From positions 310,001 to 374,000 of the forward strand of contig NZ_AP021881.1 of the NCBI RefSeq assembly GCF_009937995.1: a DNA stretch of 64,000 bases, in the 5' to 3' direction. The stretch's first letter is position 1, and each line of letters opens with the position of its first letter. Below are positions 58,604 through 64,000 of this stretch, piece after piece. The translations under genes and the position numbers were made by a program. Source of the DNA: Sulfuriferula nivalis (GTDB lineage Bacteria; Pseudomonadota; Gammaproteobacteria; Burkholderiales; Sulfuriferulaceae). Under the pieces are notes generated by a model. It saw only the letters and a list, made by a program, of their open reading frames with translations. It did not search any database and had not been told where the DNA came from.

Positions 58604-59062
58604 CTACTTCGCCTCACGCAGTTCGTTCAGTATGCTCAATATATCCGCTTCCCAGTGATCAAATATAGGTTTCAGTTTTGGGTCTGGAAAGAATTGCTCC
58701 AGCATTTTAGGATGGCTGGCAACTAAGATGGCCTGATCGCCTTCTGCAAATATGGTGATATTGAGTGGCAGAAAAGGTATGAGTTCTGGGTGGCTGGCTG
58801 TGACTGCCTTCACTTCGTCGAGTTTGCCAAAGTATACGACTCTGTACATGTCGCTTTTGAAATCGCGTTTAGCCAGATTTTCATTGACCTCTTGCAGTCG
58901 GGTTATTTTATAACCCCTTGCGGCAATTGCGCTTTGCAGCAATGTCATTGCTTCTGGAAACTGGTTGTCGGTACGTGCCATCAGCAAGCCTTCAGCCATG
59001 GCCGGCAAACTCAAGCTCAATAACAGCGTAGCTAATCCCAGATGTCGCATTAATTTTTTCAT
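58604..59062 (-). CDS. Exported DUF302-domain protein
   Basis: A 152-residue protein with a signal peptide (cleavage near AMAEG, residue 24) and one DUF302 domain (FPEAMTLLQSAIAARGYKIT, YRVVYFGKLDEVKA, FLPLNITIFAEGDQAILVAS). DUF302 proteins are often fused to or encoded beside c-type cytochromes in sulfur-oxidising bacteria, and their function is unknown. The ATG overlaps the stop of the upstream cytochrome gene by 4 bp (ATGA), so the two are translationally coupled and likely partners. Confidence 0.87.
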   Translation of the reverse strand: MKKLMRHLGLATLLLSLSLPAMAEGLLMARTDNQFPEAMTLLQSAIAARGYKITRLQEVNENLAKRDFKSDMYRVVYFGKLDEVKAVTASHPELIPFLPLNITIFAEGDQAILVASHPKMLEQFFPDPKLKPIFDHWEADILSILNELREAK

Positions 59063-60105
59063 AATGTGGCCTCCTCAATAATAGCGGTATAACTTTGCGT
59101 CATCTGGTCGCACAGCGGATTTAGTTCGGCATTGTTAAACAAACCACTGAGTACTTTTGGATTGACTGACATGACTTTGACTTTGCCATCTTGCTCGAAA
59201 ATAGTGATGCGGCAGGGAAGGAACATACCTACTCGTGGATCTATGGCCAAGACCTGATTCAGCAAGCTGATATTGCAGAAATAGACGATAACTTGTTTAG
59301 GATTTTCATTCTCAGGCGAGGTAAAACCATACTCCAGCGTTTGCACTCTGCCGTAGAAGAAATTGTTATTGCTGACCGCCTGTTTGACGTTTTCTACTGT
59401 CGTTTTTAAATCATAAGGCGAATCGCGCACGATGACTGGGCTTTCTACCGTCAGTACTTTTGCGCTGTCAGGTAATGGCTGCTTTTGTAAACTGCGAACG
59501 TAGCTGACCAGGTCATTTATGTCCTTTTCTTTCAGCCCGCGCTTCAAGAAAGACACCATCGGTGTGCCATCTCTGCCATTCATCAATGTAGCCTTGATCA
59601 TCGCATCGCTGGCCGACGCGAGGAAGCCGGGGTTATGCAGTGCGGGTGCCATGATAGGCAATTCCCGAGGTCGTGAGAATGTGACGCCTGTTCCCTTGCC
59701 GCCTTCCGCGTTCACACCATGACAGGCTACACAATAGTTTTCAAATAGCTGGCTGCCATGAACAGGGTCGCCCTTAATTGTGGCGGACGAATAAATGATG
59801 GGCGGTTGCTTGTTCCATGCGCGGACATAATGAACAATCGCTTCAATTTCGTCTGGACGTAACTGGGTAAATGCGGGCATGACCCGACCAGGTCGTCCGA
59901 GACGTATGGTTTGACGAACATAATCATCACTGATGCTGGCCTGAAATGAGGGTAGTGCTAATGGAATGCCTATCCCGCCAGTCCCTGTTTCACCATGACA
60001 GACTGCACAATTTTGCTGATAGAGTTGCGCGCCAGTTGCACCAGCCAGTGCTTGCCCTAGCCCCAGCCACATTAATCCAATCACACTCAAGTAACGCAAT
60101 AGCAT
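59059..60105 (-). CDS. Dihaem cytochrome c fused to a DUF302 domain
   Basis: 348 residues from ATG 60105, which has GGAG nine bases upstream; ATGs further up lack a site. Signal peptide, then two class I cytochrome c domains with haem motifs CAVCHG (about 32-37) and CVACHG (about 125-130), each with a distal Met region (VMPAFTQLRP and TPMVSFLKRG). The last 120 residues form a DUF302 domain (YGRVQTLEYGFTSPENENPK and FLPCRITIFEQDGKVKVMS). The combination suggests a periplasmic electron carrier whose partner is the coupled DUF302 protein. It is divergent from nifB; any link to nitrogen fixation is only positional. Confidence 0.88.
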   Translation of the reverse strand: MLLRYLSVIGLMWLGLGQALAGATGAQLYQQNCAVCHGETGTGGIGIPLALPSFQASISDDYVRQTIRLGRPGRVMPAFTQLRPDEIEAIVHYVRAWNKQPPIIYSSATIKGDPVHGSQLFENYCVACHGVNAEGGKGTGVTFSRPRELPIMAPALHNPGFLASASDAMIKATLMNGRDGTPMVSFLKRGLKEKDINDLVSYVRSLQKQPLPDSAKVLTVESPVIVRDSPYDLKTTVENVKQAVSNNNFFYGRVQTLEYGFTSPENENPKQVIVYFCNISLLNQVLAIDPRVGMFLPCRITIFEQDGKVKVMSVNPKVLSGLFNNAELNPLCDQMTQSYTAIIEEATL

Positions 60106-60307: not shown

Positions 60308-60323
60308 TGTCAGATTTGCGACA
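60308..60323. promoter_or_regulatory. NifA upstream activator site 1 (TGT-N10-ACA)
   Basis: TGT at 60308-60310 and ACA at 60321-60323 separated by exactly ten bases, the consensus NifA binding site. It lies 98 bp before the sigma-54 promoter. Confidence 0.75.
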
Positions 60324-60420: not shown

Positions 60421-60436
60421 TGGCATGTTTTTGGCT
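60421..60436 (+). promoter_or_regulatory. Sigma-54 promoter of nifB
   Basis: TGGCATG-N4-TGGCT matches the -24/-12 consensus (TGGCAYR-N4-TTGCW) except one base; the invariant GG and GC are in place with the correct spacing. Transcription would start near 60447, about 43 bp before the ATG. Two NifA sites upstream support it. Confidence 0.8.
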
Positions 60437-62713: not shown

Positions 62714-63301
62714 ATGTCACCTCCCGCATTTAGTCAGCATCCCGATACACCGCCACTGCCGATGAGTGGTGATGATGTTGCGCTGGGGGGATTTGATGAA
62801 TGGCTTGATAGTGCCTGCCTTGGTGGCGATCTGCCACCAGCAGTGGCAGCTGATTTGCAAAGTGCGGCAGACAATTATCGTTTTGATGAGGTGGCGGAAA
62901 GTTATCTTGTGCAGGCTTATGCTCGTGCACCTGATCATCCCGCCGTACATATTGCACTTTATCGTTTTTACTTTTACAAAAATCGTCTGAGTGAGGCACT
63001 GGTTGTAGCACAACGTTGCCTGACCAAGACGGCAGTTGATCTTGGCTTGCCAACTGACTGGCAAAAAGTGGCACCAGATCACGTGGTATTTGCGGGGCAT
63101 GCAGAAAGTTATGCACCTGCACCACGCTTTTATCTGTTCACGCTAAAAGGTTGTGCTTATCTGAACATGCGTTTGGGAAATCTGGATCAGGGCAGAGCAC
63201 TAGTCGCCAAATTGCAAACCCTGGATCCGACCAATAAATTGGGCGGGGCCGTCTTGCAAGGCATACTTGACAGAGTGGGGAAGAATGATGATGACGATTG
63301 A
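62714..63301 (+). CDS. TPR-like protein of the nif operon, function unknown
   Basis: A 195-residue soluble protein, all helical by appearance. Central helix pairs (ADNYRFDEVAESYLVQAYAR, HPAVHIALYRFYFYKNRLSE, YLFTLKGCAYLNMRLGNLDQ) have the spacing of tetratricopeptide repeats. The N-terminus is Pro-rich and the C-terminus acidic (KNDDDD). No family name is recognised. Its place between the HesB-like and LRV genes, with a 9-bp gap before it and a 17-bp overlap after it, points to an accessory role in nitrogenase maturation. Confidence 0.75.
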   Translation: MSPPAFSQHPDTPPLPMSGDDVALGGFDEWLDSACLGGDLPPAVAADLQSAADNYRFDEVAESYLVQAYARAPDHPAVHIALYRFYFYKNRLSEALVVAQRCLTKTAVDLGLPTDWQKVAPDHVVFAGHAESYAPAPRFYLFTLKGCAYLNMRLGNLDQGRALVAKLQTLDPTNKLGGAVLQGILDRVGKNDDDD

Positions 63302-64000
63302 CGCTGTTGAAGCTTTTGAAGCGCTCGACTGGCAGGCACAGCCTATAGATTGCGCGACGTGTGCTCATCAAACACTACTTGCATCAGGGCAGTGTGAATC
63401 ACAACATGCTTGCGTGTTTGATCGCTATGCGCTGCGCATAGATAGATTTTTCCGCTGGAATCCGGCCTTGGCCAAAGATTATCTCAAACATCCGTATTTT
63501 GAGGTGCGCGCCATTGCCGCGAAATATGTCGAAGTGTTTTATTTACCGCAGTTGGTGGCCGACGAGGACGAAACCGTGCGCTGGAGTGCGGCACAGAGAC
63601 TGACATTGTCACAGTTGCGGCTGTTACGGACTGATCCTGATCGCGAAGTGCGGATACGTGTAGCGACTCGTTTGCCTGAAACTGAATTGAAATCGATGTT
63701 GCACGACGCCGATTATTACGTGCGCACTATCGTGGCGAGACGCTTACCCATTGGTTTGCTGCCTTTGATGATACATGACGCTGATCGTGAAGTGCGTTCG
63801 GAAGTGGCTAAACGTATCGCCCTGAGCAGCTTGCGCCTGATGGCGGATGACCCGGAAGTTCAGGTGCGACTTGTGGTTGCAAGACGGTTGCCCGCAGCGC
63901 AACTGAGTTTATATATTCACGATGCAGATTGGCGTGTGCGTTACGAAGTAGCGCAGCGTATCGATGAGAAACAGCTTTACGGATTGCAGGCAGATGACGA
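63285..64000 (+). CDS. LRV iron-sulfur repeat protein, nif-associated (runs off the window)
   Basis: First 238 codons of an open frame that continues past the window. ATGs at 63285, 63288 and 63291 are all in frame; GGGGA lies before them. The N-terminal cysteine cluster (DCATCAH, then GQC and HAC) fits a [4Fe-4S] site as in the Azotobacter vinelandii LRV protein. After it come repeats of about 23-24 residues (LLRTDPDREVRIRVATRLP, LMIHDADREVRSEVAKRI, LMADDPEVQVRLVVARRLP), the leucine-rich variant repeat. The A. vinelandii protein is also encoded in a nif region. Role unknown. Confidence 0.88.
   Translation, partial: MMMTIDAVEAFEALDWQAQPIDCATCAHQTLLASGQCESQHACVFDRYALRIDRFFRWNPALAKDYLKHPYFEVRAIAAKYVEVFYLPQLVADEDETVRWSAAQRLTLSQLRLLRTDPDREVRIRVATRLPETELKSMLHDADYYVRTIVARRLPIGLLPLMIHDADREVRSEVAKRIALSSLRLMADDPEVQVRLVVARRLPAAQLSLYIHDADWRVRYEVAQRIDEKQLYGLQADD

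Follow-up and report, generated by a model that had tools for sequence, protein, structure and literature searches.

SoxCD consists of a molybdenum subunit, SoxC, and a dihaem cytochrome, SoxD, and draws electrons from the sulfur bound to SoxYZ. According to the portion of PMC7608252 used here, the release of sulfane sulfur from SoxYZ without SoxCD proceeds 'in an obscure way', and the portion of PMC12285272 used here gives elemental sulfur or polysulfides as the presumed products of partial Sox systems and reports that soxCD was missing from three of its four Sulfuriferula strains. Two papers (PMC5037610 and PMC11034169, in extracts) already link DUF302 proteins to sox clusters, and the former reports such a protein for organisms without soxCD. 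An earlier, sequence-only reading of the present DNA stated that no activity is known for DUF302, which is consistent with the open-licence PMC literature; the link of the family to sox genes is, however, covered by these two papers. A published description of a cytochrome-DUF302 fusion or of a DUF302 pair was not found among open-licence PMC papers, and the extracts of PMC10512742 and PMC11267869 contain nothing further on such a pair.

The locus described here is from Sulfuriferula nivalis (GCF_009937995.1) and lies in a window of 64,000 nt, the whole stretch of DNA analysed, which corresponds to positions 310,001-374,000 of the forward strand of NZ_AP021881.1. It comprises two coupled genes, the products of which are referred to as D and P. 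The sox-cluster DUF302 gene of Acidithiobacillia and Sulfitobacter resembles the pair in encoding a DUF302 protein associated with sox genes, but in the extracts available it is a single gene located between soxA and soxB or after soxF, whereas D-P is a coupled pair away from sox. SoxCD is comparable, as a candidate for function, in combining two periplasmic subunits, one of them a dihaem cytochrome; D-P is nevertheless not a member, as it has a putative thiol site instead of a SoxC-like molybdenum subunit, and no Pfam or NCBIfam match of the molybdenum SoxC kind was obtained for D or P. Like CcoP of the cbb3 oxidase and QcrC, D has tandem CxxCH domains with a distal Met, and it matched chain C of 3mk7 and QcrC chains; unlike these, D is apparently soluble and exported, ends in a C-terminal DUF302 domain and scores far below the curated cut-offs, being neither CcoP (69.3 bits, TIGR00782 cut-off 179.95) nor SoxX (25.4 bits, TIGR04485 cut-off 61). 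Regarding the DUF302 family itself (1q9u, 1j3m), the fold is that of both D and P, and cysteines 1 and 2 (in the CN and LPC motifs) are common, whereas D-P is encoded as an asymmetric pair by two genes, adds a third thiol, includes a partner without the three thiols and has one of its halves fused to two haems.

Two-gene locus and properties of the subunits

The coordinates of the features are listed in Table 1. The dihaem cytochrome c-DUF302 fusion proposed in the sequence-only reading was borne out by the open reading frame and its strand, by two CxxCH motifs and by a match to PF03625 (DUF302) of 45.9 bits over residues 268-316, against a gathering cut-off of 23. Further Pfam matches of D were Cytochrome_CBB3 (83.9 bits) and Cytochrom_C (80.1 bits). 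With a CxxCH motif and a distal Met in each of the two domains, D is classified as a class I c-type cytochrome, the Met residues being putative ligands. The cytochrome part contains zero cysteines outside the CxxCH motifs. The model of the whole fusion was of modest confidence (pLDDT 75.1, pTM 0.54). A relative of the cytochrome part alone was seen at a Neobacillus locus (L016), where it adjoins genes that read as cytochrome-assembly-like, a setting that gave no clue to the pair.

Table 1. Features of the D-P locus and of the adjoining nifB upstream region (positions within the window).
Feature	Position	Strand	Basis
D subunit: dihaem cytochrome c and cysteine-bearing DUF302 domain, 348 aa	59059..60105	-	ORF, Pfam matches
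Sec signal peptide of D (probable), residues 1-21, cut after ALA	60043..60105	-	read from sequence
Haem c motif 1, CAVCH (C33-H37)	59995..60009	-	sequence, orthologue alignment
Met76 in GRPGRVMP, candidate distal ligand of haem 1	59878..59880	-	conserved in ≥95% of 59 fusions
Haem c motif 2, CVACH (C125-H129)	59719..59733	-	present in 61/62 fusions of first set
Met183 in GTPM, candidate distal ligand of haem 2	59557..59559	-	conserved in ≥95% of 59 fusions
DUF302 domain of D, residues 224-348	59062..59436	-	PF03625 match and fold match to 1q9u
Cys277 of D (thiol 1)	59275..59277	-	Cys in 69/70 pairs of first set
Cys298 of D (thiol 2, LPCR motif)	59212..59214	-	Cys in 67/70 pairs of first set
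Cys332 of D (thiol 3)	59110..59112	-	Cys in 64/70 pairs of first set; partner cysteine instead in 7/107 distinct pairs
ATGA start/stop overlap coupling D to P	59059..59062	-	sequence; overlap conserved among pairs (see text)
P subunit: partner of DUF302 fold lacking the three cysteines, 152 aa	58604..59062	-	ORF, homology, model fold
Val59 of P (Cys in the clade whose D is without thiol 3)	58886..58888	-	pair alignment
NifA-binding-site-like TGT-N10-ACA upstream of nifB, outside the pair's own control	60308..60323	+	pattern search
Sigma-54 -24/-12-like site facing nifB, 1 mismatch to pattern	60421..60436	+	pattern search

The ATGA junction between the two genes, also noted earlier, was read in the sequence: on the minus strand the start codon ATG of P occupies 59062-59060 and the stop codon TGA of D 59061-59059, P thus beginning inside the stop codon of D. 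An overlap of 4 nt was kept, despite differing gene neighbourhoods, in 100 of the 108 pairs described below, a count biased towards overlap since the script picks the start codon nearest that place; because of this conservation the overlap is considered more than chance. Judged from their N-termini, both D and P carry putative Sec signal peptides and are probably exported.

The product of the second gene had been called a separate DUF302 protein, which is upheld by its fold (best match 1q9u) but not by the Pfam threshold, as P scores 18.5 bits against PF03625, below the cut-off of 23. Aligned to the DUF302 domain of D, P was identical at 25 of 106 positions (E 3e-11). The model of P (pLDDT 86.8) matched 1q9u with E 1.1e-8 and Z 17.1 over 126 residues (rmsd 2.6), followed by the further DUF302-fold entries 1j3m (Z 15.7) and 7tj1 (Z 15.2); the first row below those entries had Z 8.7, and rows ranking below the DUF302 entries were left unused. 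According to this model, P is a divergent DUF302 relative by fold that lies outside Pfam's own threshold. (Note that 7tj1, from Brucella, is titled putative fluoride ion transporter CrcB, a title that seems to be wrong or to belong to another gene.) The source genome holds four other DUF302 genes elsewhere (L146, L147, L148 and L149), of which one is probably a cytoplasmic canonical member, one lacks the two cysteines and two are apparently exported; no second DUF302 gene was coupled to any of the four.

Occurrence, ancestry and cysteines of the pair

A search of genome contigs yielded near-full-length D at 10 loci, with P directly behind it in 10/10. In profile searches with P, 29 of the 300 genomes of the order and 69 of the 369 genomes of the class were positive, 61 of the latter strongly (E < 1e-20; the weak class matches G390, G418, G469, G488 and G536 lay outside the inspected set), whereas in the phylum sample the source genome was the only positive among 62. 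DNA was inspected at all 29 order and all 61 strong class positives, and D was next to P in every one, the D counterpart being fused to a cytochrome in 26/29 and 61/61, respectively; D without P is incompletely covered by these searches because the P profile detects D weakly. The 111 loci inspected gave 108 pairs after exclusion of three single DUF302 genes (L125, L190, L191), and 107 of these were distinct, L128 being identical to L006 and counted once in the tree, in the partial Mantel test and in the tally of cysteine swaps.

D carried the cytochrome in 96 of the 108 pairs and was haem-free in 12 (L119-L124, L142, L144, L185-L187 and L189). The haem-free pairs showed the 4-nt overlap in 11/12 and all three D cysteines in 12/12. 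A fused and an unfused pair occurred together in eight genomes (G300, G342, G344, G347, G482, G484, G567, G622). At L098 (G360), D has lost its second CxxCH and its P groups (99/92) with the P of the haem-free L123 (G622), which suggests that haems were lost stepwise in that line.

In a tree of D and P (143 rows, 135 columns, many forks open), all 69 P rows clustered together (95/81) and separately from every D row, whether fused or unfused, from which it follows that one old duplication produced both halves. Regarding co-evolution, the partial Mantel correlation over 59 pairs was 0.63 (p 0.001) between the DUF302 domain of D and P given the cytochrome, a value to which similar rates in the two DUF302 domains could contribute, and 0.09 (p 0.099) between the cytochrome and P given D; L098, with its lost CxxCH, and L112, with an odd junction, were excluded.

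All three D cysteines were present in 97 of the 108 pairs, and P had Cys at the aligned thiol positions in 0/70 pairs of the first set. 1q9u lacks thiol 3, and the alignment to 1j3m stops short of it. Four pairs of the first set (70 pairs) had lost thiol 3 alone, with Cys59 in P in 4/4. As a held-out test, 40 further loci were fetched, which gave 38 new pairs; here three pairs had lost thiol 3 alone, and P Cys59 was found in these three and in no others, two of them sharing a family with one of the first four and the third not. The 107 distinct pairs thus comprise 96 with three D thiols and no P Cys59, 7 swapped pairs and 4 degenerate ones (L112, L113, L138, L166; P Cys59 in none). P Cys59 accordingly accompanied D with thiols 1 and 2 but without thiol 3 in 7/7, and occurred in 0/100 of the other distinct pairs. 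The seven swapped pairs form one clade (support 1.0, one change) in a tree built without those columns, and the swap therefore occurred once and counts as one observation, kept by seven descendants. Within this clade P Cys59 was retained, and the residue at the emptied position of D changed to Ala, Trp, Ser or Phe. In the models, P59 is located at the end of strand 2 of P and C332 in the C-terminal helix of D; since these are different structural elements, the swap did not carry one and the same site over to P. Read most simply, the pair alignments point to one three-thiol site at the D-P contact, where it would be expected to lie because either subunit can supply the third thiol. The swap singles out four residues (C277, C298, C332 and P59) and the contact between the subunits.

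That fusion plus coupling point to one complex, as the sequence-only reading held, is well supported by the conserved coupling, the D-P co-evolution and the cysteine that changes subunit. In view of the duplication, the co-evolution and the division of the cysteines, D and P very probably form one complex.

The same data bear on two rival readings of the pair. The first, considered rather unlikely, regards the pair as an electron carrier only, with the dihaem cytochrome as a shuttle of lithotrophs, the DUF302 pair as a docking or dimerisation module and the cysteines as structural (disulfide). The His/Met dihaem class I domains do resemble CcoP and QcrC, and thiols 1 and 2 are old family features found in the haem-less solved DUF302 proteins 1q9u and 1j3m, so that these two thiols alone need not mean electron transfer. 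However, the haem-free pairs keep the three cysteines and, in all but one case, the overlap, which argues that the haems were added to a core formed by the thiol pair, and a structural disulfide needs no third, subunit-changing thiol. The second reading, a three-thiolate metal or metalloid site, e.g., for Cu(I) or As(III), serving handling or delivery and tied to the dihaem cytochrome, suits the three conserved thiols from two subunits, which could form a trigonal thiolate site; it is the main chemical rival of the sulfane model set out below. In the neighbourhoods examined, genes for metal resistance or oxidase assembly did not recur beside the pair, and its distribution tracks soxB, for which reasons a metal site is judged unlikely.

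Distribution relative to sulfur oxidation and proposed role

A distribution unrelated to sulfur oxidation, which the sequence-only reading had named as evidence against itself, was not what was found. In the order, soxB exceeded the cut-off in 29/29 pair-positive genomes as compared with 111/271 others (Fisher p 4.5e-11, kinship uncorrected), and in the class soxB was matched at E 1e-60 in 56/61 positives as compared with 95/308 others (Fisher p 1.2e-19, kinship likewise uncorrected). At the family level, with families listed by hand, 10/10 families with the pair were among the 32/51 families with soxB (p 0.005). Most sox-bearing genomes are without the pair (111/140 in the order, 95/151 in the class). 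Five class positives gave no soxB match at this threshold: in G510 and G610 D has lost all three thiols, G510 being also without a dsrA or soxC match; in G614 D has lost thiol 2; G354, which has dsrA and soxC, and G633, which is 75% complete, keep all three thiols. None of the neighbourhoods examined, as judged by eye, placed the pair in a sox or dsr cluster. The sox locus of the source genome reads as a soxXYZAB cluster without soxCD and with no DUF302 gene in it; no soxC match was obtained in this genome, and for dsrA a weak match only, none over the cut-off. The link to soxB makes a role of the D-P pair in sulfur oxidation probable, although it could also mirror lithotrophy generally, in line with a mere electron carrier.

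Regarding soxC, matches were found in the order in 1/29 pair-positive genomes vs 16/40 soxB-positive pair-negatives (p 0.0005), the 40 negatives being a hand-picked, non-random selection that includes, among others, same-genus and dsrA-positive genomes, and in the class in 5/45 pair-positives vs 7/35 soxB-positive pair-negatives (p 0.35). Six genomes have both soxC and the pair, and D has lost thiols 2 and 3 in one of them (G132) and keeps all three in the others (G344, G354, G356, G492, G542). As a strict rule, replacement of SoxCD by the pair was not upheld, the rarity of soxC in the order being unrepeated in the class. For dsrA, matches over the cut-off were present in the order in 22/29 positives vs 38/271 others and in the class in 35/45 pair-positives vs 22/35 soxB-positive negatives (p 0.21). 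A role as partner of rDsr was rejected as a rule, given the class result and the lack of dsrA over the cut-off in the source genome.

The preferred proposal, put forward tentatively, is that D and P form an obligate periplasmic complex which acts in sulfur oxidation as an electron-withdrawing site for thiol or sulfane sulfur. Such a complex would be built like an asymmetric DUF302 dimer, in which D would supply two His/Met c-type haems and thiols 1-3, while P, without those thiols, would close the site. A cysteine of the complex would take up, or be oxidised by, a sulfur intermediate, e.g., sulfane sulfur that remains bound to SoxYZ, and the two haems of D would pass the electrons on to a c-type cytochrome oxidase; two His/Met haems beside a thiol site would suit the removal of electrons from sulfur. 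In the haem-free pairs (12/108), the thiol site would represent the core to which the haems were added as an electron sink, or else a separate carrier would be used. The thiol/sulfane chemistry as such is a guess, possible but doubtful.

A more specific version, in which D-P is a new periplasmic sulfane oxidase whose three-thiol site across two DUF302 subunits takes the SoxYZ sulfane in truncated Sox systems, converts it to polysulfide and passes the electrons on through the haems, is speculative and on balance unlikely; the substrate stays a candidate because the association with absence of soxC was unrepeated in the class set. If true, this version would give the widespread DUF302 family its first activity, and it would supply the step called obscure in the portion of PMC7608252 cited above and change the model of truncated Sox. 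If the pair is a metal site or a carrier, many Gammaproteobacterial sulfur oxidisers would still share it as a conserved component that is uncharacterised, and it would be useful as a marker in annotation.

The DUF302 gene that accompanies certain sox clusters has been the subject of printed speculation as encoding an enzyme that converts thiosulfate, trithionate or tetrathionate, the relevant part of PMC5037610 proposing a polythionate role for the DUF302 protein whose gene lies between soxA and soxB. This is in line with a weak fold match of D to TsdA (E 0.019). In TsdA-type catalysis the active-site haem is His/Cys-ligated; in the cytochrome part of D no cysteine is available for such ligation outside the CxxCH motifs, even if a cysteine of the DUF302 domain might serve as ligand. 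Moreover, the printed gene sits in a different genomic setting and was likened to the pair by description only, and a polythionate enzyme is accordingly regarded as improbable.

nifB and the genomic surroundings

The sequence-only reading had placed a nif operon across the divergent region and hinted at a connection. The neighbour is indeed nifB (683.3 bits, cut-off 343.65), and an accessory role of the pair in nitrogen fixation (electron supply or oxygen protection) would account for this divergent arrangement in the source genome. Yet nifB was present in 14/29 pair-positive vs 22/39 pair-negative genomes (p 0.62; G170, dsrA-positive and pair-negative, was left out of this comparison), and the contexts of the pair differ even within the genus, where it lies beside an apparent division/cell-wall cluster at L126-L128 and elsewhere at L129, only the window having it beside nifB. 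The NifA-like and sigma-54-like signals of nifB are oriented towards nifB and away from the pair; both patterns are no commoner than chance across the window, their placement alone being suggestive. The hinted connection did not hold, the adjacency of nifB is a coincidence with nif as a bystander, and the accessory role is hardly credible.

When the neighbours within 7 kb were clustered, lineage-specific blocks were obtained, which by eye consist of housekeeping genes (prfB, cyaA, lysA, carboxylesterase, rsmI, pyrC, dcw cluster), and these clustered neighbours gave no functional hint. Two further observations concern nif genes. Beside those of the window, a protein encoded at 63267-63998 has a cluster of cysteines at its N-terminus, with short repeats behind it, and is presumably similar to the LRV repeat protein associated with nif in Azotobacter. 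In another genome of the same genus (G196, C1:21933-23245), nifB matches occur in two adjoining pieces of 583.0 and 84.5 bits, an arrangement resembling a frameshift.
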